Source: Granulicella sp. L46 (lineage in GTDB: Bacteria; Acidobacteriota; Terriglobia; Terriglobales; Acidobacteriaceae). From it: a DNA stretch of 64,000 bases. The notes below the pieces were generated by a model. The model had not been told where the DNA came from, did not search any database, and worked only from the letters and a program-made list of their open reading frames with translations. Below are positions 3,141 through 46,271 of the stretch, piece after piece. The stretch covers positions 194,212 to 258,211 of the forward strand of contig NZ_LMUT01000016.1 of the NCBI RefSeq assembly GCF_009765785.1. Reading direction: 5' to 3'. Both the position numbers and the translations under genes were made by a program. Within the stretch, counting starts at the first letter, position 1, and each line of letters starts with the position of its first letter.

Positions 3141-3209
3141 CGTCTGCTTCCTTTCGGGGTAGCGTTCTGTATTGCCGGTTCTGCGCTTATGCATGGGGAC
3201 TCGATAGCG

Positions 3210-6099: not shown

Positions 6100-6114
6100 T
6101 TGGTGGAGGCGGCG
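6100..6114 (+). repeat. attL core, direct repeat of ssrA 3' end
   Basis: TTGGTGGAGGCGGCG is identical and co-oriented with 46257-46271, which contains the tmRNA 3' CCA and acceptor strand. Similarity continues weakly past the core (TCGAA at the same offset on both sides), as expected for a displaced copy of a tmRNA T-arm region. Read as the left boundary of the island. Confidence 0.8.
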
Positions 6115-6177
6115 TCTATCGAATAATGGCCTCAACTGTTTGACAACAAAAGATATTACTGAGTCAAACAAAATAGG

Positions 6178-15687: not shown

Positions 15688-17649
15688 TCAACGCGGCTGA
15701 CAGATGTATTCAACAATCCTCGAAAAGAAGCTCGCGTATGGCCCAGATGCGTATCGCTTCTTGAGATCAAGCATGTAACCGTAGACATGATCTTCTGTGG
15801 AATTCGGGAACAGTCCGGCGAACGTCAATCCGCTGCTCCATTTTCCCGGCTTGAGGCGCAGGATGCATATCAGAGCTTCAGCCAGGCGGTTCGTGCCCGC
15901 GCCCTGCCCTCCGGTAAAAAAATGTGCCTTTTGGCGTGCGGCTCTCAGGGCATCCACTCCCAGTTGGCCGAGGGGATTGATGTGTCGGATCGACGATTCC
16001 AGGGTAGAGGTGAGAGGGCAGAACACATAAATCACTGGCCATGATTCCCTGGGGGTTTGCCGGTGCTGGTCCGATAGCTCTTCATACCAGGCCTTGGCAC
16101 CGTCGGTCGCGCAATATTTGTTCGTCGCAAACCAGAGTGCGACCTTCCAGGATTCGGTTATGTCCAAGCCATGCGTCGGGATTCCATAGTGTTGTGCGAT
16201 CGCCATAACTCCGATATCCCACGAACTCGCCGCACCCGTCGCCAGCCGCTTCCAAGCATAGTTAGTCGACAGCAGATTGTCCTCCCCGTTCACGGCATAC
16301 ATATGGTCCTGCAGCAGAAACTGGAGGACGGGATGGAAATCTTCGTAGTTCAATTTCGCCCGTGCATCCGCGGTCTGCAAAGATGGCTCGCGTGTCTCGT
16401 CCGCACCAAACAATAGCTGCCGAATGGCGGCTTCTCGTGCGACCCAGTAGGGCTTGGTCTGCCCGCGAAAGAACAAGGGCCGGTGGGTCGCCTCAGCAAG
16501 ACTTTGGATCACATGATCGGCGGCAGCGACTTCGTCCACATCGATAATCGGTATCGAATAGTGCCGCACTCGTTCGCGTCCGGACATTTTTTGTTCCGCC
16601 AACCAGGTTTTCGTTTGATCGCGGAAGACCGGGTTCGGAGAAAAACCGTACCACCCGTGGGGGGCGATGGAGCAAGCTTCAAATGCTGCGAAGTAATTCT
16701 TGTCTAAGAGCAAGCCCGTGTGGCCATCACTGACTGGGGTGGGCGTTTCAGTAGTCAACCAGAGTTCCAATCCAGACAATGAACCAGGTTCGATAGGAGC
16801 GATCCACTGGGGAGGATTATAGGGATGATACTCATTTCGAGGCAGTTCGTTCAGATCGTAGTTCGATGCACCGGGATATTGTGGTTCCGACAGGAATTGC
16901 AGAATCCACGCTTTAATTCCCAGGATGTCGCTTTTCTGCAAAATCGTGGCGTCAGCCTCGGTGTACCCCATGGATATTAGACCTTCAATGTTTTTCGCAG
17001 AATCCGATTTCGAGGGATGGGCCGCCTGTTCGAGGACATAGAGAGGAGTTGTGTAGTAACCGGAAAAGAATGTCCCACGGTCTATGTAAAGGGCATGCCA
17101 GCGCGTTGGCCATGAACGGGAGCCGGTGCCAGCTGCCTTCACTCCCGCGGGCATATCAGTGTTTTTTTTCAAAGCTACGCGAAGAGAAGCTAAATAGAGC
17201 TCTGCGAAAATTTCAAGCGGAAACCAGAGGCCGCAAGGCCACGGGTGCGCTGACTGCCAATCCATGACGAATATGTCCTCATTTTCCAACTTGCTCGGCA
17301 CGATTTCGAATGTGCTCGCGTGAGTCGGACTGCACTTTGGAAGTTGGAAGCCACATACGCCATAGATTCGAGATACGAACGTGTCTTCAAACAGCGACTC
17401 ATCTATGTCTTCCTGTTTCATGTTGTAAAGCTGGAACTTCAACGCAGCGACCAAGGCCTCGGCGACCTGACGGTCTCTTCCGAGATAGACACCGCCACGG
17501 TAATCAAAAAGCATGGGTGGCACAGTCTTCGTCTCATCGTCGACAGCCAAATGGGAATAGCCGTTGTGGCGACCTGCGTTGTAGGTCAATCCGAGTAGAT
17601 CAACCCAATATGGCGAGAGAGCATAATACGACGTAAAAACGTTGGACAT
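15688..17649 (-). CDS. FRG domain protein
   Basis: 653 aa, ATG preceded by GAGGTCAGC. The C-terminal half has an FRG domain: RPLFFRGQTKPYW, then AIAQHYGIPTHGLDITESWKVALWFATNKY, the family's FRGQ and QH.G.PT..LD.T..p..ALwFA motifs. The N-terminal 380 residues are unfamiliar and rich in aromatic residues. FRG domains occur in uncharacterised bacterial proteins, often in defence or mobile islands; the name comes from a conserved FRG motif and no activity is firmly established. It leads a set of three minus-strand genes with gaps of 305 and about 135 nt, so co-expression is possible but not tight. Confidence 0.8.
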   Translation of the reverse strand: MSNVFTSYYALSPYWVDLLGLTYNAGRHNGYSHLAVDDETKTVPPMLFDYRGGVYLGRDRQVAEALVAALKFQLYNMKQEDIDESLFEDTFVSRIYGVCGFQLPKCSPTHASTFEIVPSKLENEDIFVMDWQSAHPWPCGLWFPLEIFAELYLASLRVALKKNTDMPAGVKAAGTGSRSWPTRWHALYIDRGTFFSGYYTTPLYVLEQAAHPSKSDSAKNIEGLISMGYTEADATILQKSDILGIKAWILQFLSEPQYPGASNYDLNELPRNEYHPYNPPQWIAPIEPGSLSGLELWLTTETPTPVSDGHTGLLLDKNYFAAFEACSIAPHGWYGFSPNPVFRDQTKTWLAEQKMSGRERVRHYSIPIIDVDEVAAADHVIQSLAEATHRPLFFRGQTKPYWVAREAAIRQLLFGADETREPSLQTADARAKLNYEDFHPVLQFLLQDHMYAVNGEDNLLSTNYAWKRLATGAASSWDIGVMAIAQHYGIPTHGLDITESWKVALWFATNKYCATDGAKAWYEELSDQHRQTPRESWPVIYVFCPLTSTLESSIRHINPLGQLGVDALRAARQKAHFFTGGQGAGTNRLAEALICILRLKPGKWSSGLTFAGLFPNSTEDHVYGYMLDLKKRYASGPYASFFSRIVEYICQPR

Positions 17650-17842: not shown

Positions 17843-20800
17843 TCAGATGTTGACGTAGTGCATGTAAGTTCTCCGTGAATTCGGACTGGCGCTTGGCTCT
17901 CGGAGAATGCCATCCGACTCACCGGGTAGCATCCATTCCGACTCTTCGATCAGGATGCGGAATTCATGCAGCAACATTGACCCTGGCAGCTCCAGGTCAC
18001 GTGTGTAGGTGGAAAGCCCCTGATCGTCGGGTGTACCTGGCTTGAAAGCACTAAGTTTGGAAACAGGGCGCCATTGCATATCCCGTGTAAGTCCATGCCA
18101 TCCCTGTTCCACCGAGCACGTCAGGCGCACAGGATTTGCGGCGTCGTTGGGGAAAACGCCTGTCACTGCAAGCGAAATATGGTGATGGTCTGTCCGCGAG
18201 ACGGAAACCCACCTGTCGGAGCGAATCTGGATGAAGTCCGCCATGACGACTTGAGAAGCTAAGCAGTCAGGCAGCGAGTCGGGTTGCCAGCGCGCCAGAG
18301 CCAGACGCACGAAGGCCGAAGCCACCTTGCTGGTGGCCAGGGGAAGATCGCAGAACCAGAGCCCTCTTTGGTCATGAAAGTCCACGTTGAAGGGAAGGAC
18401 CGTTGCCGTCCCGCCTTCGTCCATCGAAAAGTCTTGCGGAGTCCAGTGTTTGCGCTTCTTTGTAGTCGGATCAGCCGCTTCGGAGGGATTTTCTTGGGTG
18501 ATGAAGTCCGTGGGCTTCATCTTATAATCGGCGATGCCACGCGGGCTATTGACGATGGGGTCTCCGCCCCAAGTAGAGACCAGTTTTTGAGCGGCGGAGG
18601 ACGGGTTGGGAGAGTCTTTGTAGAAAACCACTCCAATTGTTTCGCGGTTGCCACTGACGCGGAACGGACGCGCAAGATAGACCCTGAGCGCCATGGTGCG
18701 CCCACGCTGCGACATGCCGTTCACCGTGCACTCTCTCCAAGAGAAGACAGGGATGACGTATAGGATAGCCGGAGCCGGTGGTCGTACCGAACTACAGACA
18801 GTGACCTGGCAGGGGTCTCCTAGCCGCGAGAATTTATCGATGTCGCTGTTGGGGTCACCGGGGAAAAATTCGCGAAAACGCGTGAATGCCGAAAGTGAAT
18901 ACGTCACAACATGGGCACGCGTATCTCGGAATTGGTGCATTCCTAGGTTGCTGTTGATGTTGCGCCATGGGGTAGCTGGCGAGCCATCATTTGTTAGCTC
19001 GCCGGCCACCTCGCTAGTTGTACGGTCCTTCGGTCCCGGCTGTGTCAGGTCGTCGACGCTGTCAACCCACGTAGCGTGGACCGTGATCTTGCTCGTGCTC
19101 TGCCAATGCGCGGAAATTTGTCCGGACATTGCAGCAGCAGATTGTCCCGGTTGCCGCGTTACTGGAAAATGAGCGGGCTTGAATTTCGGTGGGTGGGCCG
19201 GGTTGCTGTCGGCGGTGCCGGGTTCGAATTTTGGCGGGTCGACCGGCTTGCTGACAGCGTGAACAAGCGTAATCCGTACTGGAGGTGTCGTCTGGTGAGA
19301 GCTGCCGTCTACAAAGACAGCCGCGGGAATCATATCGATGATGGCCGTGAAGGTGTCCGTGGCGTGCTGGGACGGAGCTGCCGGAGGAGGTGGCGGTACA
19401 ACACTGGGCGGCGGCGCTCCGACAGGGGGCGTCGTCGGGTTGGATGCCGCCGGGTGCTGTTGGTGCAAATCCAAGATCTCAGCAACGGCGTCTCCTAGGA
19501 GAAACTCTCCACCCAAAGGGGCTGGCGGCGTTGCTGTTGGATTTGCTGCGGGAGTCGGATTTGAGGCGGGCGCCGCAGGGGCAACCCTCTGCTTCAGCCT
19601 GGCGCTGAGCTGTTGAAGATTGTTGAACAGGCTAAGCGTTGCTCCGGCCGGTAAGACGTGGGGTGGTGCCGCTGTCGCTTGATCATCTTCAGGGGTGACT
19701 CTGTAGCGAAGGAGCGAAGGCAAGCCACAGCCTCCCGAGCCGCTCTCCCTATTGAACGGTGAGGTTGCCGTTGGCATGGAGGAACTTGTGATCTGTAGCA
19801 ATACTGTTTGCCCCGGTGGAAGTTCGACAAGAATGGCCGGCACCTTGCTGGGCGTCATGTCTGCGAGCGGCACCGGATCTAGCTTGATGTCCAACGAATT
19901 GCCATGGCGAAGAACGATGCGCACCGGCGATGGCTGTGGCCACTCGGAGGAAGGAAAGAACGGCAAGTAGATAGCTGTACCAGGGTCTTTCGTGGTGACG
20001 GCAGGAGAGTAGGACTTTAACGATTCATCGAGCTCGTAGCTTTCAATGCGAACGAAACGCACGAGCGGGTCAGGCCAATACGGGTTGTTGGGTTGTACCG
20101 GCGCCCGCATCAGCAGATAAATCTGATCGTTTTGTGCAGAGCCTTCTTGGGGCAATCCATCACGAAGCCAATGGTTCGCAGACGCGGCAGCTAAGCTGGG
20201 AAAAGCGCCATTGTCCTGGAGTTGAGCATTTGCGAAGGCCCACCTGCCTGGGGGAAAGTTGCGGCCATCGAAGGCTCCGTGCAGTTCAACCAGAGAGAAA
20301 GGCTCACGAGGCGGCGCTAATAGCCGTGAAGCATCGCAGTTCTCGCGATCCCGAAGGACCATCACGGTGCCCTGTTCTCCGGGGCTGGTCGTACCGCTGT
20401 ATGGCTTCTCAAGTAGGACCTGAGGTCCACGCAACGGCTCATGGCGGTCGAAGAGATTGTCAGGCAGCGCATATTGTTCATCGGCTGACCAGTTGGGCGG
20501 GAGACTGTTGCCGACCAGGTCAACGTGGCGCAAGCGAAGGTCGTAACGATGATCGAAACGCAGGCGAGGGGCGGCAATTTTGGCCGGTTGTGAGTAAGCG
20601 GGCTCGATGCGGACGATCGGCGCACCATCGCCCGGGCGCATCGACCTCTTTTCATTGAAATCAAACTTCGGGCGCGGGATAGAAAGCGGCCACCCATTCC
20701 ATGTCACGAGGGTTTCGTGAGTCTTCAATTGCATGTCTTCGGGTAGCTGAGATACGCCAGATCCGAGAGTCGTGTAGCCTTCGTCGCTTGCACAGGTATA

Positions 20801-22501
20801 GGGTTCGGTAGGGTCGATCTTTTTGAGATCGATCGGTTCCGGCTTCCATCTAAGGAGGGTGCGTTTGCCCGTTGCGTCGAGAATTCTGTAGGACGACTCA
20901 CGAAGGTGGAGAGAATTCCATTGGGCGGTCCCCGTTTCGCGCACGTCTAAGCGGTAGCCCAGCGTCAGGTCCTCCAAGGCGAGCGGTTTGGCTTGTGTTC
21001 CGAGGTCATCGTCGTTGCGCGCGATCTGGCGGGCGAGAAAGTCCTTCCGGCCTTCCCATAAAAGCGAAAGTCCCTTGGTGCGCGACGAAGGGAGAGTCTG
21101 AGATGGGCGATTGTCGTTGACTGTCAAATTGACCGAGGTCGTCTTATACTCCTGACCGCGCGCTGAGGACCTCTTCTGATGGATCAACTTCTGCGCCGAT
21201 CCATCAGAGTCCTCGGTAATGACTCTGAATATGCTTCTATCGCTGATGTCCAGAAAGCGGTTCTTGTGTGTGTTGTCGGCACTGCTGGCGACAAACGAGG
21301 GGTTGATCACGCACGAGGTATAAAGCGAGACCAGATCAATGCCACTTATTTCTTTTTCTGGACCCTCGAGATGTGCTGTGAAGCCGGGTAACGTCTGCAG
21401 GGTCTGCAACGACTGATTGCCGAGATCGACGTCTTCAAAGTCCAGCGCGAGTCCAAGTGGACGCAGCAAGACTGGGTATTGGTGGAGCATGCCGAGCAAT
21501 TGGTGGAAGTCAGGTCTGTCGGGTTTCGGCAGTGTCGTCGTCGATTTCACGTGCTGGCTGGCACTATGAAAGAGCTGGAAGTTGACGTACTCGCGGATGC
21601 GCTGGAACAGGTCGTCGCTAATGGCGGTGTTGGAGTGTGATGTGAGCGGACCTGTGGAAGCATGTATGGCGGTCACAACGCCTCGCGTCGTCTCGTCGTG
21701 AGAGGAGGGAGCTACAGACGTCACGCAGTTCGTGTAGACAGCCAGCAATGCTGCCGCGGTGAGATCGTCTCCTTCGCGCTCTTCCAGGACATGGATTGAA
21801 TGGTTCACGCGGTCACTGATGAGCTTTGCTTGTGACAGCGCCCTCCAAGGAGTCTTGGCAGGATCCGGGTCTACAATCGCTTGCACCTTTTTCCGGTCCG
21901 CAAGCATCGCCTTGATCGGCACGGCCGTGCCGTCCTTCGGCGTCACCGTGGGGGAGAGATAGATATCTTGCGGCGCAACGGTCGCGGCGAAATCGGTCGC
22001 CGTATCTGCCGCAGTTTTGATGTCATTGGGTGGAGGTGCAGTGGCGTCCCTGGAATTTGCGATGATGTGGTTCTTTGCCGCCTCCGTCGAACGGTAATCT
22101 CTATGGTCGTCATGCAATTGGCCGGCTTTGACGGAGACGTGCCAGGCGTCATCGTAATCGTTGTTCAGCTTCCTTGGCTTGACGGCGAGCTTTCCGTCGA
22201 TCAGTGCTGGCCATAACTTTGGATCTGGCTTTGACGTCTTTGACGTGCAGTCAACCGAAATTTGCATCGGCCCATGATCGCTTTGCCAGGAGAGCGTGAG
22301 CTTCCAAGGTCGCTCTTTACCGGTGAGGTCGGATCTGAACTTCTCCCAGGTGACCGGCCAGTCTTGGATGGCCGCCGGCAGGGAAGCCTCAACTAACGAT
22401 GGGCTTAGCAAGGCCGTGAAGTTGACTTTGCTTCCATTGGAGCCATTGGGGAGTAAAGTGATGCGGATACTCGACGTTTGTTGAGGATTGTCCATGATCA
22501 T
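17843..22501 (-). CDS. Giant unknown protein B of a two-gene pair
   Basis: About 1552 aa. I start it at the ATG at 22501, which overlaps the stop of the upstream giant gene (ATGA); longer starts would overlap that gene. No signal peptide. The sequence is beta-rich with many Trp/Tyr, and has FHQLLGMLHQYPVLLRPLGLALDFED, then LTLGYRLDVRETG...W.SLHLRESSYRI. A long Pro/Ala linker (about residues 1000-1100, with NPTPAANPTATPPAP and PPPSVVPPPPP) precedes a second globular half with GLWFCDLPLA and VYLARPF. I do not recognise a family. Translational coupling to the 2157-aa gene implies that the two act together. Confidence 0.75.
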   Translation of the reverse strand: MIMDNPQQTSSIRITLLPNGSNGSKVNFTALLSPSLVEASLPAAIQDWPVTWEKFRSDLTGKERPWKLTLSWQSDHGPMQISVDCTSKTSKPDPKLWPALIDGKLAVKPRKLNNDYDDAWHVSVKAGQLHDDHRDYRSTEAAKNHIIANSRDATAPPPNDIKTAADTATDFAATVAPQDIYLSPTVTPKDGTAVPIKAMLADRKKVQAIVDPDPAKTPWRALSQAKLISDRVNHSIHVLEEREGDDLTAAALLAVYTNCVTSVAPSSHDETTRGVVTAIHASTGPLTSHSNTAISDDLFQRIREYVNFQLFHSASQHVKSTTTLPKPDRPDFHQLLGMLHQYPVLLRPLGLALDFEDVDLGNQSLQTLQTLPGFTAHLEGPEKEISGIDLVSLYTSCVINPSFVASSADNTHKNRFLDISDRSIFRVITEDSDGSAQKLIHQKRSSARGQEYKTTSVNLTVNDNRPSQTLPSSRTKGLSLLWEGRKDFLARQIARNDDDLGTQAKPLALEDLTLGYRLDVRETGTAQWNSLHLRESSYRILDATGKRTLLRWKPEPIDLKKIDPTEPYTCASDEGYTTLGSGVSQLPEDMQLKTHETLVTWNGWPLSIPRPKFDFNEKRSMRPGDGAPIVRIEPAYSQPAKIAAPRLRFDHRYDLRLRHVDLVGNSLPPNWSADEQYALPDNLFDRHEPLRGPQVLLEKPYSGTTSPGEQGTVMVLRDRENCDASRLLAPPREPFSLVELHGAFDGRNFPPGRWAFANAQLQDNGAFPSLAAASANHWLRDGLPQEGSAQNDQIYLLMRAPVQPNNPYWPDPLVRFVRIESYELDESLKSYSPAVTTKDPGTAIYLPFFPSSEWPQPSPVRIVLRHGNSLDIKLDPVPLADMTPSKVPAILVELPPGQTVLLQITSSSMPTATSPFNRESGSGGCGLPSLLRYRVTPEDDQATAAPPHVLPAGATLSLFNNLQQLSARLKQRVAPAAPASNPTPAANPTATPPAPLGGEFLLGDAVAEILDLHQQHPAASNPTTPPVGAPPPSVVPPPPPAAPSQHATDTFTAIIDMIPAAVFVDGSSHQTTPPVRITLVHAVSKPVDPPKFEPGTADSNPAHPPKFKPAHFPVTRQPGQSAAAMSGQISAHWQSTSKITVHATWVDSVDDLTQPGPKDRTTSEVAGELTNDGSPATPWRNINSNLGMHQFRDTRAHVVTYSLSAFTRFREFFPGDPNSDIDKFSRLGDPCQVTVCSSVRPPAPAILYVIPVFSWRECTVNGMSQRGRTMALRVYLARPFRVSGNRETIGVVFYKDSPNPSSAAQKLVSTWGGDPIVNSPRGIADYKMKPTDFITQENPSEAADPTTKKRKHWTPQDFSMDEGGTATVLPFNVDFHDQRGLWFCDLPLATSKVASAFVRLALARWQPDSLPDCLASQVVMADFIQIRSDRWVSVSRTDHHHISLAVTGVFPNDAANPVRLTCSVEQGWHGLTRDMQWRPVSKLSAFKPGTPDDQGLSTYTRDLELPGSMLLHEFRILIEESEWMLPGESDGILREPSASPNSRRTYMHYVNI

Positions 22502-25500
22502 GTGCAAACCGCAAACACCTGCTGGTATTCCTTCCACTCTCGATCGGTAAACCAGCGTTCGTCGGCGCTGGGTAAGAACTGTTCGTCTGCCAGCATCCAT
22601 GGATCCTCGTGATGAAGCTCGGCGCTTTGATTGCTCTGATTGCTGCTGGCCCCAGCCGATCCAATGAAGTCATACTCCGCGTGCATATGGAAGTCTGCGC
22701 TGAAGAAGAGGATGTGCACCGAAACCGAGAAGTCGGCGAAACCATGCACACGATTCGGATTGCTCATGTAGCAGAGGGTGACATAGAGATCGATGTCGAG
22801 CGAGATGATCCCGAAGATATCCATGTGCCCGTGCGCATGGAGGAAACCGCACACGATCGCCTGGTCGCCGCCTACGTGGAAGTAGATGCCGGCCATCACG
22901 TAGCCGTATCCGCCCACCGGGCCGATGGAGATTGCGGCGCAGACGCCAAATTCGAGTGCGCCTTCCAGCACTTGCACGCCATCCAGCCCCAGCTGTAATT
23001 GCAGGAAGCCACCCCCGCCATAAATTCCCGAGCTGAGGAGGAATGGGTGGTTCTCGTCGGAAATGCCGATCTGACAGCGGAGTGGAGTGCCATCGAACGA
23101 CAGCGAGACCGCAACCTCGATCGCCAGTTGAAAGATGTTGAAGGCGCCGACCGATTTGAACGGCATCGCGAAGCGGAAACCCGCACGCAGGCCGAGGCCC
23201 GTGAATTCGACGAAGGGACCTGTCTTGGGATCAAGCAACGCTGCCAGTTCGGCCACAAAACCCATCGCCTGGCCGAATTCAACGTGATCCAGCGTGAGTC
23301 GGCAGTCAGGCTTGTTTCCGTTCGTCGAGGTGAACACCAGCGACTTGACATGCAGCAGCAGGAAGCTGGGAGAGCCGATCAAGTTGATTGTGAACTGTTT
23401 TAGCGTCGCGGTGATGCTGGTTTGCGGCGGTGTACGCGCTAGCAGGTCCGTCTGGAAGCTGGCTTTCACAACGAAGTCCGCGCCGGACTCCAGCACAAAG
23501 ATCGGCTCTACACTCTTGATTTCCGGGTGCCAGTCGTAGGACAGCGAGACCTTGTCCGGGATGGGAAAGTTCGCGAGAAGCAAGGGAATCAGGTTTCTTG
23601 CCTGCAGCAGGCTCTCTGCATTGGCGCCGATATGTCGGGCGGAATCTCTAGCCTTTGCCATAAAAAGATCCAACTGCGCGAGCATGACGCGGCTGTCGTC
23701 GATCAACTCGGAAAGAGTGGCATTGGCAGGCGGCTTCTGCAGCTTGCCAAGAGGTGCGCTGATATCCGCAAACAGGATGTAGAGAATTCCGGCGGGCTTA
23801 GCGGCGCTTGCCTTCTGGCCCTGGATGAGCTGATAGATATTGTTGCCGCTGCCTGCCACGGTGGTCAGAAGGCCAGCATAGGCCATGAGCGCCTTGGCAT
23901 CCGCCCCGGTGAGAGCGTCAAGTAGCGACTTGACCGAGGTAAGGTCGGGAGCATCGAGGACATAGCTTTGCCAGGAGACTACCGTTGTGAGCACCCCGAT
24001 ATAACGCACGGTTCCGTCAAACACGCGTAGCCGTGCGGCTGCTTGTGCGGGCAGCACAGCGTTGAAAGCATCGATTCTGTTCTGCATCGACGCGCCCTGC
24101 GTTTGCAACGTCTGGTCAGCATCAAAAATGGCTTTGGCCGTGTGCGCCGAGATAGTGTCCATGTCGCCGTTGATGCCCGCAACGAGCTCACTGAATTGTG
24201 CCTGTAGAATGATGTTCACCGAACTGGCAGAAGCCAGTGGTGTGGCCATAATCGTGAGGAGCGGCGACTGCTGTTGAGCAGCTGGTAGCGTCAGGCCGGT
24301 TCGCATAATTCCGAAGCAGCCGATGACTTCCGTGAAAGACTGATTCTGCGCCACAGCCGAACCGATGCCATACAACGCCTTGAGCAAGGCAATAGCCGCT
24401 GCCTGAATGGCCACAGACTCGTTCGCCATGGCCGTAAGCGCAGCCGTCTCCAGCGCGTGAATGCTAACGAGGACCTGGCGCTGCAAGCGAATGAATTGTT
24501 GCAGCAGCCGGTGAGTTTGCGCAGGAGAAGGCACGTTATTGAATTTTGCGAAGGTATCGAAATAGAGCTTCAACCTATCGAGACAGCGTTGCACCTGGCG
24601 GAAGTTCTGGAGTGTACTCACACCATCGCTGTTCCCGGGCAGCGATGCGAGGTGGTACACGGCCGTTTGCAATTCCTGGACAGCGGCCTCCAGCTGAGCC
24701 GCGTCCGTCTTCACGTCAAAGAACGTCGTCCGGAGGTCCTCCTCGGCCTTTTGTGCATTCTGAATAAATTGTTTGATGTCGCCAACCGCCGAGGTATCGA
24801 GGCCGAGAGGAGCGAGCGCCTGACAGATCGAGAGCAGGTTTTGTGAGATGGCAGGCAGCTGCTGCACGGCTCCAGCGGGATTACCGCTCTTGATATTGGC
24901 CTTCGCTGTGTCAATAGAGACCGCGAGATCTTTCGCCGGCTGCACGGCGTTGACTAGGGCAACGAGCTCTGGCGCCAATTCGCGCAGCGTCAAGGTTGCG
25001 CGCGAGATATCGTCGCCGGACGGGAGCTGTACTTGGAGAGGGTCTTTCGGTAACGCCGTATCCAGCAGGCTTACCAGCTTATTCAGCACACCGGTCACCG
25101 CACTGTCGATGGCTTGCCGTGCCGGCGCGAGTGCCGTGAGAATTTCGTTCATCGCGCCGTTGAGCTGGTTTTGAAGCGCGGTCAACTCAGGACTCTGAAG
25201 GAGGCTTTCGATGATTTCGTTGCAGGCCTCTTCCCCTAACGCGGCAGGATCGTTTAGCAGGGAGGAAAGCTGGTCGATGTACGCTGCAATGCTGCTGATG
25301 AGGGCCGAGTGGGCCAGCGCCGCAGTAAGGTCATCGTCAAGCGAGCGGCTCGCGTCGGCCGTTGCCTGCGCCGACAGCATCGCACTGTAATTGCTGTCGA
25401 TGATCCTCGCCTCCGGGGCCATGTGCCGTGCGATGACGTTGACGTCAGGAAGCAGGTTTTGGAAGCCGTCAATGGCCCTAACGGCTGGTCCTTCGTAAGT

Positions 25501-28500
25501 CTTTAGCGTGTCCTCCACTGTGTGGAGGGCCTGCTCGATCATCTGCGGCGCCTTGCCGAGATTGCTCGAAACGCCGCCCAGCAGTGGAGCAATGATGTCA
25601 CCCAGCTTGACCACTCCTAGAAGCTTGGACGAGGTCAGCGCTCCAAAGAAGTCTGTCGGATCGAATTTGCCGGTGGAGAAGGTCGAGAGCGAAGCATGTG
25701 GCGTATTAGTGCCAACATCCTTGCTGGCCAAGCCTGCATTTCCACCGACCGGTCCGGCTCTACGCGAAAAGCCGACGACCAGAGTGTCGGGACTGACAAA
25801 CCCGCCAGCCTGGTCTGTTTTTCCAGAGGAACTGAAGCTAAGCGACGGCGCCTGCGACGTGTCCACTTGCAGCAGGACTTCGCCGGCATTGGCTTTCGCA
25901 TCGAAGCCGCTTGTCAGGTATGGGCCGAACATGGTGACCCATGTCGGCGGGGCTTTGCCGGTAATGCGCTGGAGTGCAGCCGAGGTCACCTGGGCGCAAT
26001 CCATGACGGGATAGAAAAACGGCAGGTCGTTCTGGAACAGTAGATTCGTCGTGTCAGTATCGGTGACAGGATTGATCTGCCACCGGATGTACTGGGTGGC
26101 AAACTTTGTATCGCCTGATTTCTGGGGGGGACCATAGGAAATGGGCTGATCGTTGAAGGGTGTGCAGAGATAGCTCTCTCTGCTGTTCACTGCAGTATCG
26201 CGGCTGTTGCGATTGGAGTCGTCGGTATTTCCAGTAGGAAGTGTCGGGTTTCCCATATTGTAGAGCTGGGCAACTTTGGGAATGAAAGTCGGATCCTGTG
26301 CCTTATCCGCGGTGATAAAGACAACTGGCAGCGATGCCTCCGCTTGGATATTGTTTTCCATGCTCCAGAAGTGAAAGCGGAACAGAAATGCCGCCCCATT
26401 GACCATCGGCCAGAAGTTGGAGGAGTCGTTGTGCGTCATTGGGTCGAGATCTGAAGTTTGTGTCGTCAGCACATCGACCCTCTTGAACGGGAAGCTTCGG
26501 CCCTGATTTGGCTGCTGTGGCAATGGAAAGGTACGCACAGGGTTGTGGACCGAGATGTACCAGCGTTGATGCAGCACGGCGAACCACGGACCATTCTTTG
26601 CCCGTTGCGAAAGGACACGCTCTGAGATTGTGACCAGCGAAGCCCTATGACCGAACGGGGCCAAATATCCCTTGTGAACAACCCGGACGTAATGATCGCG
26701 CCCAAGTGTCGTGATCTCGTTCAGCTGCTCCAGGAGCATTTGTGTGCTGTGGTTCGTATAGTCCAGTCCGGGTGGATCCCAGGCCCCGACGCCTTTTAGG
26801 TAGCCGCCTTGTGAGCTCAGCATGAGGTGCGTCAGCTGAAGTGGATCTGGCGTCCACGCCTCACCTTTAGGATTTTTGAGCGAGAAATCACTGGTGAGAT
26901 GAACTAATTCCTGGCGATCGCGAACACCGACTGGGAATAACGGCGCCGGTTTGGATGGATCCTGCAAAGGAGCCAAATGCTCTGAATCCAGTTCCTTATC
27001 CGGCGTAAAGATAGCCCGCGCAGTGCGGTGCTTGTCGTCTGTCTCATCGATGTGCCAATTCGCCTCGTCCTTATCCTTCACCCGCGACGACAGTCGCGTA
27101 TGCCAAAGCTCCAATCCTTCGCCGCGCTGCATTGGCGTCGCGCTCTCGTGGGCCCATCCACTGTTTTCATCTGGAGAAAGGTAGACCCGAAAAGGCAACT
27201 CAATGTGCGTCTTAGACGCGATCTCGTCGAGCGACTGCGGCAGCTTCGTGTGGAGCGTTGCGGTTGACTTCGCCACTTCCGCCACTCGTGCCGTCCACTT
27301 CGACCAGTCCAGCAGGTGATCCAAATGAAACGGGATCGGCTCGAAGGTCGCGCCCATGTCAAAGGCGAGAGTGGATTCCCCCGAAAACGCCCATACAGGA
27401 GGGTTCGGGTCCGGCGTATTGCTGATAATGGTGGGGCCGGGCTCATTGGGTTCGAGCGTGCCGTGATTCTCGGGCGTGTTGTCGTCTGAATGGAAAAACG
27501 CCTGCTCCTGTACATGTTGTGGGGGAAATACGACCCTGAACCAGGGGGCCGTCGCCGGGGGAGGTTGTGAGGGTCTGATCTCCGGTGCGGGACCGGAATG
27601 GAGGGTGACCCCGTCAAAGTGAAAGTCCAGCACCATCATGTCGGATGGGCGCAGGATCGTGAGGGTGTCCTTGCTGTTCAGCTCAAACTCAAGCGTGTGC
27701 TCCCAGGGCAGCAGATGCAGATAGCCGAGAAAACGCTCCACGGGACGCATGATTACGCCCCAGCTAAAGTAGAGCGGCTTCGCTGTGTCGAAGTTCACGC
27801 GCATGCAGGTCGATGCATAGCTCGGTATCTGGATGGCCGAGACCGCCGGTGTAGCGGAAGGCGTTCCGGCTTGGTCATGTGCGTCGGCTAGTTCAAAGGG
27901 CGGATCGTCCTCGTGTGGATCGAAGGAGAGACTGAGGTGCTCTGTATGGGCCCAGGTCGTTTGTGGTTCGAAGTCGGCGAGCAGTACGGAGTGCGGTTCT
28001 TCTCTCGATAACGTGAAGGCAAGTCGAGCGGAGCGCAATTTGAAGTGAAAGGGCTCGCGGCTGATGTCCATTAGGCCGCCACCCGGGAAGAAATGCAGGG
28101 GCGCCTCGTTGTCCGCCGCCTGCGTAAGCAGCGCGGCGTGGCGTGGTCTTCCCGTTGCGCTCGTGGCCTCTAGTCGCAGCTCATCGAAGACCTCTGCCTC
28201 AGACCCGTGCGCCAGCCTCCAACCATGTTCTGCTGCTGCGCGCTCCAGTCGCACATCCCACATCTTGTCTTCGCGCCCGAACAACAGGCTCGTCCTCGGC
28301 GCATCGCGATCGCCCTCAAGCAGAGGCTCAGAATGGTCGAGCCTCATTACCCAGCTATGCGCATCGAGAGTTCTTTGTAGCGGATCGAGGGAGATGGCCG
28401 TATCGCCGACAAAACTAAACACCCAATCTGGCGCAAACTGTAGGCGGGCTCCATGCGCGAGCGTCAGTAGGGTATCGGTCAGAGGGCGCAGGCGCGCCGC

Positions 28501-28971
28501 ACGGAAAGTACCTTGTGCCTTGCACGTGCCTTCGAGCCAGTTGAGCCAAGTTGCCTGCACCTCTCCACCAAAGGAGAAGCTGAGCTTCATGCTCCATTCG
28601 CCGGCCGACCGCAACAGGTCGCAGACGAAATCCGCCGGGAGGGATGTGCCGGGGAATAGCGCATCTTCAAGTGCAATGCGGATGGCGCTTTGTTTACGGT
28701 CGACGACAAGGTTCGGAGAGCCGTCAAAGCGTGCGGCGTCGATTGTCCAGCGCACAGTGTCGCCGGTGAGCGCGCGCACCCGGTTTCCTTCGCGGAGCAG
28801 CGAAAAGCCATCACCTAGGAAAAGCGGATGAACTGCGGTGGCAGCCAGGCTTGCGCTCGACAAGCTCAGAAAGCTACGACGTGTAAGAACTGGGCCGCAC
28901 ACTGCCTCGGGCTTGGGAGGGAGCGCGCGGCGACGCAGAAAACGTAGGTCAAAGGGAGAACGATGTGACAT
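22498..28971 (-). CDS. Giant Tat-signal protein A, unknown function
   Basis: 2157 aa, start at 28971. Residues 30-52 (TRRSFLSLSSASLAATAVHPLFL) fit a twin-arginine export signal. Residues about 60-1080 are beta-rich with repeated Trp-containing strands. About 1130-1750 is long, helical and Ala/Leu/Gln-rich (LNDPAALGEEACNEIIESLLQSPELTALQNQLNGAM...), which suggests coiled coil. The last 350 residues are beta-rich and Gly/aromatic-rich (GIYGGGGFLQLQLGLDGV, GPVGGYGYVMAGIYFHVGGDQ, DFSVSVHILFFSADFHMHAEYDF), like a repeating beta sheet or solenoid. No catalytic motif is seen. It is divergent from a Tat-exported cysteine peptidase-like gene and coupled to giant gene B. An exported structural or surface role is inferred. 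Confidence 0.75.
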   Translation of the reverse strand: MSHRSPFDLRFLRRRALPPKPEAVCGPVLTRRSFLSLSSASLAATAVHPLFLGDGFSLLREGNRVRALTGDTVRWTIDAARFDGSPNLVVDRKQSAIRIALEDALFPGTSLPADFVCDLLRSAGEWSMKLSFSFGGEVQATWLNWLEGTCKAQGTFRAARLRPLTDTLLTLAHGARLQFAPDWVFSFVGDTAISLDPLQRTLDAHSWVMRLDHSEPLLEGDRDAPRTSLLFGREDKMWDVRLERAAAEHGWRLAHGSEAEVFDELRLEATSATGRPRHAALLTQAADNEAPLHFFPGGGLMDISREPFHFKLRSARLAFTLSREEPHSVLLADFEPQTTWAHTEHLSLSFDPHEDDPPFELADAHDQAGTPSATPAVSAIQIPSYASTCMRVNFDTAKPLYFSWGVIMRPVERFLGYLHLLPWEHTLEFELNSKDTLTILRPSDMMVLDFHFDGVTLHSGPAPEIRPSQPPPATAPWFRVVFPPQHVQEQAFFHSDDNTPENHGTLEPNEPGPTIISNTPDPNPPVWAFSGESTLAFDMGATFEPIPFHLDHLLDWSKWTARVAEVAKSTATLHTKLPQSLDEIASKTHIELPFRVYLSPDENSGWAHESATPMQRGEGLELWHTRLSSRVKDKDEANWHIDETDDKHRTARAIFTPDKELDSEHLAPLQDPSKPAPLFPVGVRDRQELVHLTSDFSLKNPKGEAWTPDPLQLTHLMLSSQGGYLKGVGAWDPPGLDYTNHSTQMLLEQLNEITTLGRDHYVRVVHKGYLAPFGHRASLVTISERVLSQRAKNGPWFAVLHQRWYISVHNPVRTFPLPQQPNQGRSFPFKRVDVLTTQTSDLDPMTHNDSSNFWPMVNGAAFLFRFHFWSMENNIQAEASLPVVFITADKAQDPTFIPKVAQLYNMGNPTLPTGNTDDSNRNSRDTAVNSRESYLCTPFNDQPISYGPPQKSGDTKFATQYIRWQINPVTDTDTTNLLFQNDLPFFYPVMDCAQVTSAALQRITGKAPPTWVTMFGPYLTSGFDAKANAGEVLLQVDTSQAPSLSFSSSGKTDQAGGFVSPDTLVVGFSRRAGPVGGNAGLASKDVGTNTPHASLSTFSTGKFDPTDFFGALTSSKLLGVVKLGDIIAPLLGGVSSNLGKAPQMIEQALHTVEDTLKTYEGPAVRAIDGFQNLLPDVNVIARHMAPEARIIDSNYSAMLSAQATADASRSLDDDLTAALAHSALISSIAAYIDQLSSLLNDPAALGEEACNEIIESLLQSPELTALQNQLNGAMNEILTALAPARQAIDSAVTGVLNKLVSLLDTALPKDPLQVQLPSGDDISRATLTLRELAPELVALVNAVQPAKDLAVSIDTAKANIKSGNPAGAVQQLPAISQNLLSICQALAPLGLDTSAVGDIKQFIQNAQKAEEDLRTTFFDVKTDAAQLEAAVQELQTAVYHLASLPGNSDGVSTLQNFRQVQRCLDRLKLYFDTFAKFNNVPSPAQTHRLLQQFIRLQRQVLVSIHALETAALTAMANESVAIQAAAIALLKALYGIGSAVAQNQSFTEVIGCFGIMRTGLTLPAAQQQSPLLTIMATPLASASSVNIILQAQFSELVAGINGDMDTISAHTAKAIFDADQTLQTQGASMQNRIDAFNAVLPAQAAARLRVFDGTVRYIGVLTTVVSWQSYVLDAPDLTSVKSLLDALTGADAKALMAYAGLLTTVAGSGNNIYQLIQGQKASAAKPAGILYILFADISAPLGKLQKPPANATLSELIDDSRVMLAQLDLFMAKARDSARHIGANAESLLQARNLIPLLLANFPIPDKVSLSYDWHPEIKSVEPIFVLESGADFVVKASFQTDLLARTPPQTSITATLKQFTINLIGSPSFLLLHVKSLVFTSTNGNKPDCRLTLDHVEFGQAMGFVAELAALLDPKTGPFVEFTGLGLRAGFRFAMPFKSVGAFNIFQLAIEVAVSLSFDGTPLRCQIGISDENHPFLLSSGIYGGGGFLQLQLGLDGVQVLEGALEFGVCAAISIGPVGGYGYVMAGIYFHVGGDQAIVCGFLHAHGHMDIFGIISLDIDLYVTLCYMSNPNRVHGFADFSVSVHILFFSADFHMHAEYDFIGSAGASSNQSNQSAELHHEDPWMLADEQFLPSADERWFTDREWKEYQQVFAVCT

Positions 28972-29354
28972 TATCTGGCTTCCCGACGATCAGGCCTAAG
29001 ACAAGTAGCACGAGGCACAGGGCCGTGCGTAAGCGGTCGGCCCAATCAATGTCGGTCAGGCCGGCTCTAAGGTGAGCCGCTATCTTTGAACCGAAGCAGA
29101 AGCGTAGTGAACATCACTGATCCTCCATTCGTTCTCAAGTAGGAAGTACGTGAGGAAAACTCTACAGCGGTACGAATTCCTTGAAGGGGATGAGCCATTT
29201 ATACAAACATCTTGCAGGCCGTCAAGAGAGAATTTGTGTCTTTTTGCAAACCTAGTTGCGTTTTCGAAAAAGTTAGTAGAAACTGGGGCGCATTCTGGAT
29301 TTCTACAGGTCACTGTTTGCGCCGCGGTGAGACGCGATCAAGAAAGAGCATCGT
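28972..29354. other. Divergent promoter region of giant gene A and peptidase
   Basis: 383 nt between two divergent genes with Tat signals, likely holding both promoters. The plus-strand side near the peptidase start has AAGAAAGAG before the ATG. No coding frame of credible quality and no terminator are seen. A shared regulatory region would fit a common function for the two sides. Confidence 0.5.
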
Positions 29355-30053
29355 ATGCCGAAGCATCGATTCGCTAACGAAGTTTCTCGTCGCGATTTTC
29401 TGGTGGCCGCCGGCGCCACGCTTGTCAGCTTAAGTTCGCTGGGCGCGATAGCTCCGGACGACCCTCCACTTTCGCCGAACGCCGGCGGGCAGACCATCCT
29501 CGAGTCCGTCTTGCAGAAGGGCGATATCCTCCTCACCACAACCACGTCAACGGATGGCTGGGCCAGCGCGGCCGTCTCGGCTCTCATCCGACAGGCTACG
29601 GGAGGCGGCCCTGTCAGCCACAGTGCCGTATTTATCGGCAATGACAGCGTGATCGACGCGACCATCACCGGCGGCGTGAATGTGAATTCCTATAACGATT
29701 TTGCGCAGAAGGCCAGCGTGATCGTCGCGTTTCGATATCCATCCATAACCGCTGCTCAGCAGCAAAACATCGTGGACTTCTGCCTGTCGCAACTGGGAAA
29801 GCCATATGCTCTCATCGGCGCCGTAGCTAGCGCTCACTTCTTTTTCGGCCCCTTACTGCACCAACTCGTCGACATGGGCGGCACGGATGGAAGCTTCTAC
29901 TGCTCCAAGCTTGTGATCGACTCGTATGGCAATGCAGGCGCGAACCTGGTTACCGCTGACCCCCAGTGGCAAAGTCCCAACGACTTGATTTCACTCACCT
30001 GGTTCGGCGAACTTGGATACGTCGGGCACCTCAAATACCCCGTCGGCTCATAA
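29355..30053 (+). CDS. Tat-exported permuted NlpC/P60 (YiiX-like) protein
   Basis: 232 aa. Residues 11-33 (SRRDFLVAAGATLVSLSSLGAIA) are a clear twin-arginine signal. The mature part follows the circularly permuted papain-like pattern of YiiX/YebB proteins: GDILLT (56-61), GPVSHSAVFIG with His89, and GSFYCSKLVIDSYG with Cys183 as the probable nucleophile. In this superfamily His comes before Cys, as here. Activities include amidase, acyltransferase or peptidase on envelope or lipid substrates; the substrate here is not known. It is divergent from the giant pair, and the shared Tat signal suggests that they act in the same compartment. Confidence 0.85.
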   Translation: MPKHRFANEVSRRDFLVAAGATLVSLSSLGAIAPDDPPLSPNAGGQTILESVLQKGDILLTTTTSTDGWASAAVSALIRQATGGGPVSHSAVFIGNDSVIDATITGGVNVNSYNDFAQKASVIVAFRYPSITAAQQQNIVDFCLSQLGKPYALIGAVASAHFFFGPLLHQLVDMGGTDGSFYCSKLVIDSYGNAGANLVTADPQWQSPNDLISLTWFGELGYVGHLKYPVGS

Positions 30054-30356: not shown

Positions 30357-31595
30357 CTATTTAAAACGGACATCGCCTTGCTTTATCTCCTTTTCTCCCG
30401 AGGACGCATTCCTGAATCCGATGCTGTAATCGCCATGCAATCCAAGCGAAGGGAAATCTACACTTGTCCACCCTCCGTGTTCGTTCTTGGACCGAAGCGT
30501 TCGGACTTCTTTCCCGTTTGCATCGTCGAACACCCAGTCGAACGCGCCGGCAGAGACAAACTCAACATCCACGCCGGCCGGTTTCTTGAACACTATTTTG
30601 TTGTTGATCCACATTTCGTTTGTAAATGACCCAAATTCAAAATGATAGTCACACTGTTCCCTGCAAGCTTTCACATAAACGACTGGACTCGCGTACCCTG
30701 ATGCCTTTGGCGGGTGGACGCCCAGCTGCACGAGGACGTCATTAATGAAATTGATGCAATTCCTTTCCAGAAGTCGGTGATACTTAGTGTTCCACTGGTC
30801 GATAAGTTGGTAAATCTGACGCCGCTGTTCCTGAGTAATAGAAAAAGTCACTGATTCGGTCGTATGCGATAGTCGTTTCGGATTACTCACGAAGTCATGT
30901 GTTGTCACTTGTGTTCCGCCTGGACCAACAATTGTGAGTCCGGCTCTCCAGACCTCAATTGTCAGCTCGCCGCTATTGGCGTTATAGAAACCGACGGGAT
31001 CATTCATCAGGATGTACAGAAGGCCATAGGATTCCGAAGTAATCACCGCATAAGAGCCAATCGGGAATACCGCGTTTCCGACTCGACCGATGAGCTTTCC
31101 AAAATACCGACCGGGTAAGGCTACGGGAAGTTCGGCTGAGGTCGGCCGCCCTGGCGTCCCATCTGCGTCGGAGCATTCTGTGGAGCCCCGGCCCCAGCAC
31201 CATCTCCCTTCAGCACTGAACGCGATTTGATCTCCAGATGCGACCTCAAATACATGATGGCCGTTAGGATCTCCGGCCGGAACGGGACCAGCTTTGCCTC
31301 GCTTTATGGGATAAAACCCAAAACAATCTTCTTTCAGCGTGGAGCTCGTCTTATCTTGAATACAAGGAAAAGCGTGTCCGATTTCAGTTCTAAGTATGTT
31401 TTCAGGGCCATAATTCCAGGCACCTTCTTCTGGAAGGAGATCCGGAGACGCCATCAGCTGGAGCTGGAAATTGGAAGCAGGCGTCGAAGTTGGCTTGGGA
31501 GTGGGCGTTGGGTCGGACTGCGACCGCGCCAATAGGGCAGACAGGCCAAAGCATAAGGCGGCTATTGCATGCCGAACGGAAGACAATCCTTGCAT
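30357..31595 (-). CDS. Secreted protein with LecA-like lectin domain
   Basis: 412 aa with a signal peptide (residues 1-25, ending LLARSQ) and a Pro/Thr linker (DPTPTPKPTSTPAS). Residues about 110-220 (VFEVASGDQIAFSAEGRW, later FGKLIGRVG, FPIGSYAVIT, LLYILMNDPVGFYNANSGELTIEVWR) match the fold pattern of PA-IL/LecA-like galactose-binding domains, including the ND...Y..N.G calcium and sugar loop. A second part contains LLERNCINFINDVLVQLGV, a conserved NC..F motif reminiscent of papain-like and LRAT-like folds. A beta domain ends the protein. Probably exported and carbohydrate-binding. It is convergent with the NlpC/P60-like gene. Confidence 0.7.
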   Translation of the reverse strand: MQGLSSVRHAIAALCFGLSALLARSQSDPTPTPKPTSTPASNFQLQLMASPDLLPEEGAWNYGPENILRTEIGHAFPCIQDKTSSTLKEDCFGFYPIKRGKAGPVPAGDPNGHHVFEVASGDQIAFSAEGRWCWGRGSTECSDADGTPGRPTSAELPVALPGRYFGKLIGRVGNAVFPIGSYAVITSESYGLLYILMNDPVGFYNANSGELTIEVWRAGLTIVGPGGTQVTTHDFVSNPKRLSHTTESVTFSITQEQRRQIYQLIDQWNTKYHRLLERNCINFINDVLVQLGVHPPKASGYASPVVYVKACREQCDYHFEFGSFTNEMWINNKIVFKKPAGVDVEFVSAGAFDWVFDDANGKEVRTLRSKNEHGGWTSVDFPSLGLHGDYSIGFRNASSGEKEIKQGDVRFK

Positions 31596-33299: not shown

Positions 33300-33374
33300 C
33301 AAAAGAATCCTGGTCACACTGTGCGTAACGGGGACCGGGCTTTTGCAGTAACATTGATTCTTCGTGGAACCCAT

Positions 33375-36300
33375 ATGAACGTGCCGTCCTTTTTCGACGA
33401 GAAGAATTTGGTCTCCCGCTTAACCCGCGGCCTCGTAAAGCGGCCGCGAGAAGTTGTCTTGCTTGTCGGCTCTCCGCTCTCTGTGCCTGTCTCTCTCGAT
33501 TCTCCTGGCGTGCCCGGTGTGCAGGGCATGATCGAAATGATCCAGAAGGAATTCGTCGATGATTCCAGCGAATATGAGCAGTTCAATCAGGCGTTGATAG
33601 ACGGAAGGTCGAACTCGTATCAAGCGGCATTCAATTTCCTGTTGGGCACTAGGGGCCAGTCAGTTGCAAACGAGATTGTCCGAGAGGCTGTCATCAAAGG
33701 CTTGCTCAATCCAGCTCCGACTCCGTCTGCTGATGAAGAGTGTCGCAGGCTTGAAGGAGAGACGAGCCGATGGTGGCTTAGTCCCGGGACAACAGCCATA
33801 GGAGACCTTTGCACGGCATATCCTCAACTATTCGGCAAAGCAATCTTAACGACCAATTTCGATCCAATGCTCGAAGTAAGCATTAGACGAGCCGGAGGTA
33901 CTTTTTATCGAACATCCCTGCACGCTGACGGATATCTCTCGCAAACAGAAGCTCCGGGCTGTCACGTTGTTCACCTCCATGGATACTGGTACGGAGCCGA
34001 CACCCTGCACACGGCCCGGCAGCTAATTCAAGATAGACCCCGCCTCAAAGCCTCGTTACTCAGCCTGCTCCGCGACAGGTTGCTGCTCATCAGCGGCTAT
34101 GGTGGATGGGACGATGTCTTTACATCGACGCTCCTTGAGCTCGTCAGAGATGATTCTGCAGGCTTCGAAGTTCTTTGGGCGTTCCACTCCAAACAGCCAC
34201 AAATTCCAGCAAAACTCCTCGAACAACTCGAGCCCGGAATTACCCGTGGCCGCATCTCGCTCTACTCCGACATCGACTGTAACTTACTGTTTCAGAGAAT
34301 TTTACTTGGTCTCGCCGAATCGTCCGTAAAAATTGCGACTGTCCTCCCGGAACCATTTCAACCTATAGTCGTGTCGGCTGAAATCGAGTTGCAGATTGAT
34401 AAGACTAGGGATGCTGGTAGGGTTTTGGAAGGCGACGACGAAGACCGACCGCCCCTTATTGATGTATTTGTGGGCCGAGAAACAGAATTCTCTTCGATTC
34501 TAGAGTCATCCGCATCAGTAATTTTTATTACCGGTATGGGTGGCGAAGGGAAATCTGCCGTAGCCGCGAAGTATTTCGCCGTTGCGCAGGACGAGCAACT
34601 ATATAGACTCTTTATCTGGCGCGATTGCAAGGAAGAAGGCGAACGCTTTGAAACGCAACTAGCGCAGGTGATCGAGGTTTTGTCACAAGGTGAGGTTAGC
34701 GGGCGTGATCTCGCTAATCAGGATAGTCAAGCTCTAATAGACCTTTTGCTCGCCCAATTAGCATCCGGGCCGCCCGCCCTGTTCGTTTTCGACAACGTTG
34801 ACCATTATGTCAATCTTGAGGAAAGTAGACTCGCCGGAGGAGCGGATAAGTTCGTCAAGTCCTTTCTCAACGCCGAGATCAAGGCGCGGGTCATATTCAC
34901 ATGCCGCTCAAGGGTCGCTTACGCTGGTCCCATGGCCCTAAGTATCGAGCTGGGGGGAATTCCGCTTCCGGCAGCCTACGACCTCTTCGAAAAGAGGGGG
35001 AGCAACACCTCGCGATTAGAAGTGGAGCAAGCTCATGCCGCCACTGGAGGCCATGCTTTATGGTTAGATTTGATGGCACTACAGGTCGTCAAGAGGCAGC
35101 CGCCCATCCGCTTGCAGGACTTAGTAAATGAAATCAATGCCGGAAAGGCAGAACTTCCTGACGATCCCCTTAGGTGGACCCTTTCCTCTATCTGGAGAAG
35201 TCTCAACGATCCTCAACGACTGATCCTTCGAGCCATGGCTGAGACGGTGAGACCAGAGACTGATATCGAGTTATCGGAATACCTCCGCGAGCACATGACG
35301 TTTAATAGGTTTGGCCGTTCGCTACGTGCGCTAAGGTCGCAGAATCTGATAGTCGTCAAAGAGGGTCGAAACGGCCAAGAACTGATCGAATTGCATCCGG
35401 TGGTTAGAAAATTCGTCCGGATGAGTTTCTCTCGTATTGAACGGATCGCGATCATTTCAGCGATCGTGCGTGTTTACGAAAGGATTATGGGAATATCGCA
35501 GGAGCAACTGAGAAATCGTCCCGGCCTAGCGATTCTGCAACGATGGTCGCAAGCCGCTGAACTGGACATCGAGGCCAATAACTTTGGTGCGGCGATCAAA
35601 GTATTAGCCGAGATTTCCACTGCGTTTGCGGCTAGCGCGTATATGAGGGAATACGTGCGAGTAGTCCGGCTATTGCTCAACTCCTTCGATTGGGTAAACG
35701 AAAATCGTAAACACGATGGCTTCGTCACGGTATTCGATGCACATATCGATGCGCTCTCATATCTCGGAGCATTCTCCGAGGTGGATGGTCTGCTGGACCA
35801 ATTTGAGCAAACGGTCCAGGAGAAAGATGCTAAGTTTGTTTCGTATTGCGCAATGCGTTGCCATACCGAATGGGTCAGAGGTGAATTTTCCCAAGCTGTC
35901 GAGTGGGGTCGTCGTGGCCGCGACCTAGAAAAAGCTTCAGGATCTGACGGAACTTCTGGTATAGCGCACAGGCTCGCGCTTGCCGAACGGGACGCTGGTG
36001 CACCAGAATTAGCATTGCCAGTTTTCTTAGGCGGCGTACGCCTCAGTCACGCAATCTCTCCAGGCAGTCTTGACGAAGAGCGTGATGGCGCGTTTTATGG
36101 CAACGTAGGACGCTGCCTCGATTTTATGGGACAGATCGACACTGCGTTGATCTGTTATCAAAAGTCTGCGATTCTCATCGAAAAGGACGCCCGGAACGAA
36201 CACGTTATGAACCAAGGATATATCCGTCGCTGGATCGGCGAGCTATTGCTTTCAAAGGGGGACGAAGAGCTCGGCGCGATTTTTCTTGAGGCGGCAAGAC

Positions 36301-46256: not shown

Positions 46257-46271
46257 TTGGTGGAGGCGGCG
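46257..46271 (+). repeat. attR core within the ssrA 3' end
   Basis: TTGGTGGAGGCGGCG, identical to 6100-6114 in the same orientation. It covers the encoded 3' CCA and acceptor strand of the tmRNA, so integration rebuilds a complete ssrA on the right side. Confidence 0.82.

Follow-up and report, generated by a model that had tools for sequence, protein, structure and literature searches.

A widespread pair of giant adjacent genes without a known family, a candidate for twin-arginine co-export in its signal-bearing members

Export of a signal-less protein on a signal-bearing subunit through the twin-arginine translocation (Tat) pathway has been established for HybOC and PaoABC (PMC4273604), and according to a review the pathway handles cargo of up to 150 kDa (PMC6708511). 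Here we describe a pair of giant genes, A and B, in a 64,000-nucleotide stretch of Granulicella sp. L46 (the window, that is, the whole stretch analysed; positions 194212-258211 of its contig in a genome of 5.48 Mb). The pair resembles those hitchhiker complexes in carrying the signal on one subunit and none on the partner. PaoABC, as presented there, is a cofactor enzyme of 135 kDa, whereas the giant pair amounts to about 406 kDa (A 235 kDa, B 171 kDa), matches no cofactor family and is accompanied by a tatA gene in some copies. A twin-arginine motif with a hydrophobic stretch on A, a coupled B without signal, and a Tat translocase in the host (one TatC and two TatA/B, encoded on contigs other than that of the window) are all hitchhiker features found here; a cargo within the stated 150 kDa, which is not a defining feature, is not. 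The reading we favour, with slightly better than even confidence, is that A and B form a two-subunit giant complex and that in signal-bearing members A takes B across the membrane by Tat, a way of working already known from other systems.

The two genes were found to travel together. In a profile search for homologous pairs, as had been proposed when the window was first read (the original prediction, made from its letters), an A profile of 11 rows was run against one genome per species; 315 of the 351 pattern matches encode a relative, and the best 80 were kept. A was present in all 80 kept loci and a B match adjoined it in 77, some loci being cut by a contig end; the three without an adjoining B are L105, whose contig ends right after A, L110 and L120. 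The gap between A and B had a median of 13 bases across 76 loci, was at most 60 bases in 67 of them and reached a maximum of 309 (L109, where the A and B matches sit in overlapping open frames, was excluded from this measure). A genome of the same genus holds the pair in the same order at approximately 30% identity, with 12 bases between the genes, and the retention of gene order in homologues indicates that both frames are coding. Within the genus, 2 of 28 genomes hold B (own genome counted). Of 200 genomes sampled from the family, 3 matched the A query, and of 396 sampled from the phylum, 17 matched the A profile. Among 72,556 plasmid records, 14 matched A (Rhizobium, Sinorhizobium, Agrobacterium, Streptomyces, Cupriavidus, Diaphorobacter and Ruegeria). 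B lay behind A in all five plasmid loci compared by phmmer (L040-L044), and a large unnamed gene, recognised by position without a profile, did so in the five others (L140-L144).

Furthermore, A and B have diverged in parallel. We aligned the window sequence with 73 of the 80 new A (L075, L085, L091, L095, L109, L117 and L134 were left out) and with B from 64 of the 77 new B loci, and 62 loci, including the window, were common to the two alignments. The distance matrices of A and B were correlated at r = 0.936, a value reached in none of 2000 permutations (best permuted value 0.17), and the nearest neighbour was the same for A and B in 43 of the 62 loci. At least 15 named phyla are represented among the 74 aligned A, as judged from submitters' titles, many of which refer to metagenome bins. 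Phylum labels change 29 times on the A tree, compared with a least possible number of 14 and a mean of 46 after shuffling. Such clustered but scattered labels are consistent with horizontal spread and are no proof of it. A and B are a widespread, self-standing, co-diverging two-gene unit.

The statement in the original prediction that no known family covers the giants was borne out. Neither window A nor window B matched any family of Pfam, NCBIfam or PHROGs over cut-off, and no PDB chain sequence matched the profiles of the A family or the B family. Scans of A and B homologues against curated profiles gave only sub-cut-off matches, the nearest being TTR-52 (24.5 versus 24.9 bits), located in an N-terminal domain that L131 has in addition. 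The libraries searched yielded no member with a known function for either family, and none of the open-licence papers listed names the pair. DUF6603, considered as a look-alike of the A C-terminus, was rejected, as it gave no Pfam match in the 11 profile members or the other scanned A, and no paper was found. No relative emerged when genome and viral contigs were first scanned with single sequences, probably because the search patterns were over-specific. A phage origin was considered and rejected: one query against 50,697 phage records gave no match, searches of viral structures with an A model gave weak whole-model matches only, and one of 40 pattern-matched stretches of viral contigs encoded a relative when scanned with the A profile. 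This viral-contig record (L148, 16.7 kb) holds A and a B-like open reading frame (ORF) near a terminase-like ORF (by eye) and is perhaps a prophage edge. With no curated family and no solved sequence relative for a pair found in at least 15 named phyla, there is an annotation gap that concerns hundreds of genomes.

Twin-arginine signals were found on A and tracked its family tree. In window A, an LTRRSFL motif is followed by an uncharged stretch at residues 29-53, as recognised by motif and hydropathy only. The same combination of motif and uncharged hydrophobic stretch occurs in 35 of the 74 aligned A, window A among them. All 35 belong to the 45 rows outside one clade, and none of the 29 rows inside it bears the motif. 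The clade was taken from a FastTree tree, with a branch support of 88, in which window A forms the longest end branch and is of unsure exact placement. A stricter earlier count, which left out the three duplicate contigs named below and the partial A of L071, L075, L091, L117 and L134, gave the motif in 23 of 72 A, 10 of 571 flanking proteins and none of 69 B.

A tatA-like gene directly adjoins the pair in 4 of 106 related loci, a set that includes three duplicate contigs (L070, L095 and L100, the same as L047, L052 and L048), and all four genes pass the Pfam TatA cut-off. It lies behind B in L044 (a Sinorhizobium meliloti plasmid, where it is also annotated as tatA) and L072 (Symbiobacteriaceae), and ahead of A in L102 (Armatimonadetes) and L113 (unclassified). 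A bears the twin-arginine motif at all four loci; in L102 and L113 it is located in a reading-frame fragment just upstream of A, with a run of N there in L102. By a rough estimate, fewer than one chance tatA neighbour is expected in about 200 neighbour positions, given about two such genes per genome, the figure for the genome studied here. The motif scan, from which divergent tatA genes may escape, gave seven matches in the 106 loci; those in L045, L047 and L070 (the last two are a single contig) were judged by eye to be chance matches and discarded.

As to architecture, the reading frames and the sequence confirmed the lengths of A and B and the overlap of their ends as originally described (Table 1). 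The ORF of B (17843-22600, minus strand) encodes 1585 amino acids (aa) counted from its first start, and the start at ATG 22501-22499 was chosen by eye to fit the N-termini of homologues. More than 300 residues precede the core in 26 of the 74 A rows. The spacer at the site of the Ala/Leu-rich insert measures 722 residues in window A, compared with a median of 75 and a maximum of 146 in the other 73 rows, and at the same site L057 and five plasmid homologues from alphaproteobacteria show a gap of approximately 550-960 residues. For A, a compact homologue (L062, 997 aa, 74 rows) was modelled with AlphaFold2 at a mean predicted local distance difference test score (pLDDT) of 84.9 and a predicted template modelling score (pTM) of 0.69, and a B homologue (L087, 1200 aa, 65 rows) at a pLDDT of 88.6 and a pTM of 0.72. 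The models suggest that B holds immunoglobulin (Ig)/fibronectin-III-like modules and that A holds an amphipathic beta-meander. Residues 760-1200 of the B model align with fibronectin-III arrays (Z up to 9.9) at a root-mean-square deviation (rmsd) of 9-19, which makes single Ig-like modules likely but not their arrangement. B has no sequence match to the fibronectin-III/Ig arrays of extracellular proteins, and this common fold implies no function.

Residues 777-981 of the A model align with outer-membrane barrels, namely CymA (Z 12.9, rmsd 9.6 over 199) and OmpG (Z 12.7, rmsd 5.6 over 184), and whole-model Foldseek searches gave weak matches to SlpA, LptD, P47 and apolipoprotein B. The barrel-like part maps to residues 1913-2135 of window A and the fibronectin-III-like part to residues 1116-1585 of B, in the numbering of the 1585-aa ORF. 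The alignment would fit an A that forms an outer-membrane beta-barrel presenting B at the cell surface; OmpG, CymA and LptD share with the A C-terminus a long beta-meander. Nevertheless, outer-membrane barrels have a Sec signal, while A has a Tat motif or none, and the protein is found at full length in monoderms (Paenibacillus, Streptomyces and Nonomuraea), that is, beyond diderms. A domain common to Paenibacillus and actinomycete homologues makes a barrel unlikely as the common role, and to our knowledge proteins folded before Tat export are not known to insert as barrels. We regard such a barrel as very improbable. The A C-terminus could instead be a membrane- or lipid-facing sheet.

Table 1 Features of the giant gene pair and its divergent neighbour in the window
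Feature	Position	Strand	Description and basis
Giant A	22498-28971	-	2157 aa, 235 kDa; ORF, computed mass and homologues
A residues 1-55, N region and twin-arginine motif (LTRRSFLSLSSASLAATAVHPLFLG)	28807-28971	-	Motif and hydropathy; missed by Tat profiles
A residues 56-393, additional N-terminal domain found in the long form	27793-28806	-	Aligned in a same-family A homologue, absent from the same-genus A homologue
A residues 394-1157, conserved beta-rich core with GRDHYVRVV.GYL.PFGH region	25501-27792	-	Profile match 4e-182; homologue model
A residues 1158-1792, 635-residue Ala/Leu-rich insert, probably helical, rare in the family	23596-25500	-	Alignment and profile
A residues 1793-2156, predicted C-terminal beta-meander	22504-23595	-	Homologue model, profile
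ATGA shared by the stop of A and the start of B	22498-22501	-	Sequence
Giant B	17843-22501	-	1552 aa, 171 kDa, without Tat motif; ORF and homologues
B C-terminal third, predicted Ig/fibronectin-III-like modules	17846-19255	-	Transferred from homologue model
Peptidase_C92 (YaeF/YiiX-like) gene with Tat signal	29355-30053	+	232 aa; Pfam/TIGR profiles; judged outside the module

We infer from these features a physical A/B complex in which B hitchhikes on A. In the signal-bearing part of the family, which includes window A, both proteins would be made from one message by coupled translation and would fold in the cytoplasm, where they would also pair. They would then cross the membrane together via the Tat translocase with B riding on A, as in known hitchhiker complexes, and the TatA encoded beside some copies, an association seen in four loci, plausibly serves the pair as an outsized cargo. 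Outside the cytoplasm, the complex would form a beta-rich surface or envelope assembly, in which the predicted Ig/fibronectin-III-like array at the C-terminus of B may be suited to binding and the predicted meander at the C-terminus of A to packing on membrane, lipid or a partner.

Several observations weigh against this reading. Tat profiles gave no match to window A, in which inspection by eye also revealed no clear AxA cleavage site; its motif could thus be an anchor, and a tatA motif scan of the window found none. The 29-row clade is without the motif, as are another 10 of the remaining 45 rows by our detection; export is in consequence no general feature of the family, and the ancestral common job may be intracellular. 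Window A alone, at 235 kDa, is larger than the Tat cargo limit of 150 kDa given in PMC6708511. L110 and L120 carry A without B nearby. In addition, co-divergence of A and B reflects common inheritance rather than contact, and relatedness is not taken into account in the permutation control; the models, made through homologues, are of A alone and of B alone; and the whole-model fold matches of these homologues were poor (template modelling score about 0.1). The pair might accordingly be an intracellular or inner-membrane-bound scaffold, its Tat-like N-terminus having been acquired late and either serving just to anchor A or playing no part in translocation. Apart from the motif-free clade, the size of A and the unclear cleavage site, this would fit the signal-less L097 and L107, where protease-like genes without obvious signal peptide (by eye) adjoin the pair (a subtilase in the former; a trypsin-like gene, below the Pfam cut-off, in the latter). 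The tatA genes adjoining the pair in four loci, on the other hand, speak against it, as do the Ala-rich signals, mostly with an apparent AxA site (by eye), on A of five alphaproteobacterial plasmid copies. We consider the scaffold unlikely, while giving it appreciable weight. The large exported assembly proposed in the original prediction is supported for part of the family, where 35 of 45 rows bear the motif and tatA genes occur beside the pair, and finds no support in the 29 rows of the motif-free clade.

The twin-arginine motif is present on A in five of the six alphaproteobacterial plasmid copies that were fetched (L044 and L140-L143); the sixth, L040, showed no motif and has its A split in two ORFs. 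The mass of A is 328.5-362.7 kDa in the four of these copies for which it was computed, and B measures 192 kDa in L044 and 209 kDa in L141 (Ruegeria). The L072 pair is smaller, at 158 and 141 kDa. It is conceivable, and in our view rather doubtful, that the pair is an outsized Tat cargo in which the membrane is crossed by pre-folded complexes of approximately 300-570 kDa, A on its own reaching 363 kDa, with the module-borne TatA as an adaptation by which the translocase opens widely enough. Tat export of the signal-bearing members, if real, would involve cargo far above the size stated for the pathway. How Tat adjusts to cargo size would then become directly testable, with the module-linked TatA as natural tools and the signal-less clade as a natural comparison within the same family.

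The gene diverging from A had led the original prediction to a three-gene contact or attack system, made up of A, B and a Tat-exported cysteine peptidase, with a shared divergent promoter region. Part of this description stands. The 232-aa protein passes the Pfam cut-off for Peptidase_C92 and belongs to the YaeF/YiiX group of permuted NlpC/P60 proteins, the subject of a structure paper (PMC3142127). It also matches the Tat signal model TIGR01409 barely over cut-off (17.4 versus 16.7 bits); of the two twin-arginine signals originally proposed, that of the peptidase is covered by a profile and that of A by motif and hydropathy. A functional shared promoter was not borne out, as a scan for sigma-70-like sites, that one promoter type, found none in 28900-29420. 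Adjacency and Tat motifs in the window are what favour the three-gene system, but none of the 106 related loci holds a homologue of the peptidase, in six-frame translations at E up to 0.01. The same holds for the 412-aa PA-IL-like protein, the FRG protein, a 244-aa ORF and the integrase. The expectation that the three genes travel together failed, the peptidase was ruled out as a third component and is an unrelated neighbour of the window pair, and nothing found speaks for envelope attack. The three-gene system is largely refuted, and we give it hardly any credence.

The genomic setting of the window pair raised the question of a defence role. An integrase gene (44883-46124) adjoins the transfer-messenger RNA (tmRNA) gene (46258-46609), and an imperfect 27-base copy (81%) of the tmRNA 3' end is located at 6097-6123. 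The pair sits between the two, together with GmrSD, FRG, SIR2/NB-ARC, CHAT and QueC-like (sub-cut-off) genes and a second integrase. DNA homology ends at the tmRNA 3' end in seven stretches of relatives, some of them short, and extra exact copies of 23-27 bases of this end were found in 3 of 28 genus genomes. An island is likely here, and 6097-46280 would make one of about 40 kb in the tmRNA gene with defence-like cargo. Its left end is unproven because none of the seven stretches carries the window's left flank at the tmRNA 3' end, nor did they reveal an empty site.

Such an island would suit a pair that is itself a defence-type module acting on phage or mobile elements, as would dpdE near an Agrobacterium copy, an N-6 DNA methylase near a Sinorhizobium copy and HsdR near a Rhizobium copy. 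However, PADLOC profiles gave no match to window A, window B, L062 A or L097 B, and no common defence partner was seen among the varied flanks of the 80 kept loci, which were viewed without PADLOC scan or enrichment count (a 700-base flank is present on both sides in 52 of the 80 and on at least one side in 73). A defence role for the pair is improbable in our judgement. Three other stretches of this region are recorded here in their own right. In a three-gene run at 37108-42165, a sub-cut-off QueC-like trace is accompanied by a 250-aa gene and a 1014-aa protein with a CHAT domain; the run is a possible uncharacterised protease-linked defence unit. A 1045-aa SIR2_2 protein (33321-36458), which matches AAA/NB-ARC weakly, lies beside an integrase. 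Directly downstream of B, a 653-aa FRG-domain protein (15688-17649) matches the PADLOC candidate PDC-S15.

Flanking genes differ between loci. Conserved operon partners other than tatA were considered and rejected: clustering of 1129 flanking ORFs yielded synteny among Aminicenantes-like genomes, common families (such as sigma factors and ABC transporters, by-eye names) and a number of small groups, one of which occurs in the Ignavibacteria-like loci L076, L110, L112, L120 and L128. Ignavibacteria copies are flanked by recurring proteins of approximately 315-700 aa with a 'PPPNQLKVADLW'-like motif (L128:4516-6390 and 18137-20236; also L076 and L112). Paenibacillus copies have a papain-family gene beside them (L097:7444-9952 and L114:7487-8446), and L097 also has the subtilase gene there. 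Other hydrolase-like neighbours include a patatin (L040), a phospholipase C (L141) and, below cut-off, the trypsin-like gene of L107 and a GH19 (L063); all these hydrolase-like genes, those of Paenibacillus included, were hand-picked with no background comparison and are not claimed as partners. In the acidobacterial loci L008 (5700-19894) and L060, the pair occurs with 2OG-Fe(II) oxygenase and glycosyltransferase-like genes, and L008 further holds Pro/Ser-rich repeat proteins that end in a similar Cys-rich/Ala-Thr-rich tail, a setting that looks like a modified-glycoprotein locus. Within the window, one stretch of the 412-aa protein (30357-31595) resembles the PA-IL lectin below threshold and another resembles PPPDE, and two genes of about 790 aa at the left end contain several tandem-like direct repeats (1959-4903).

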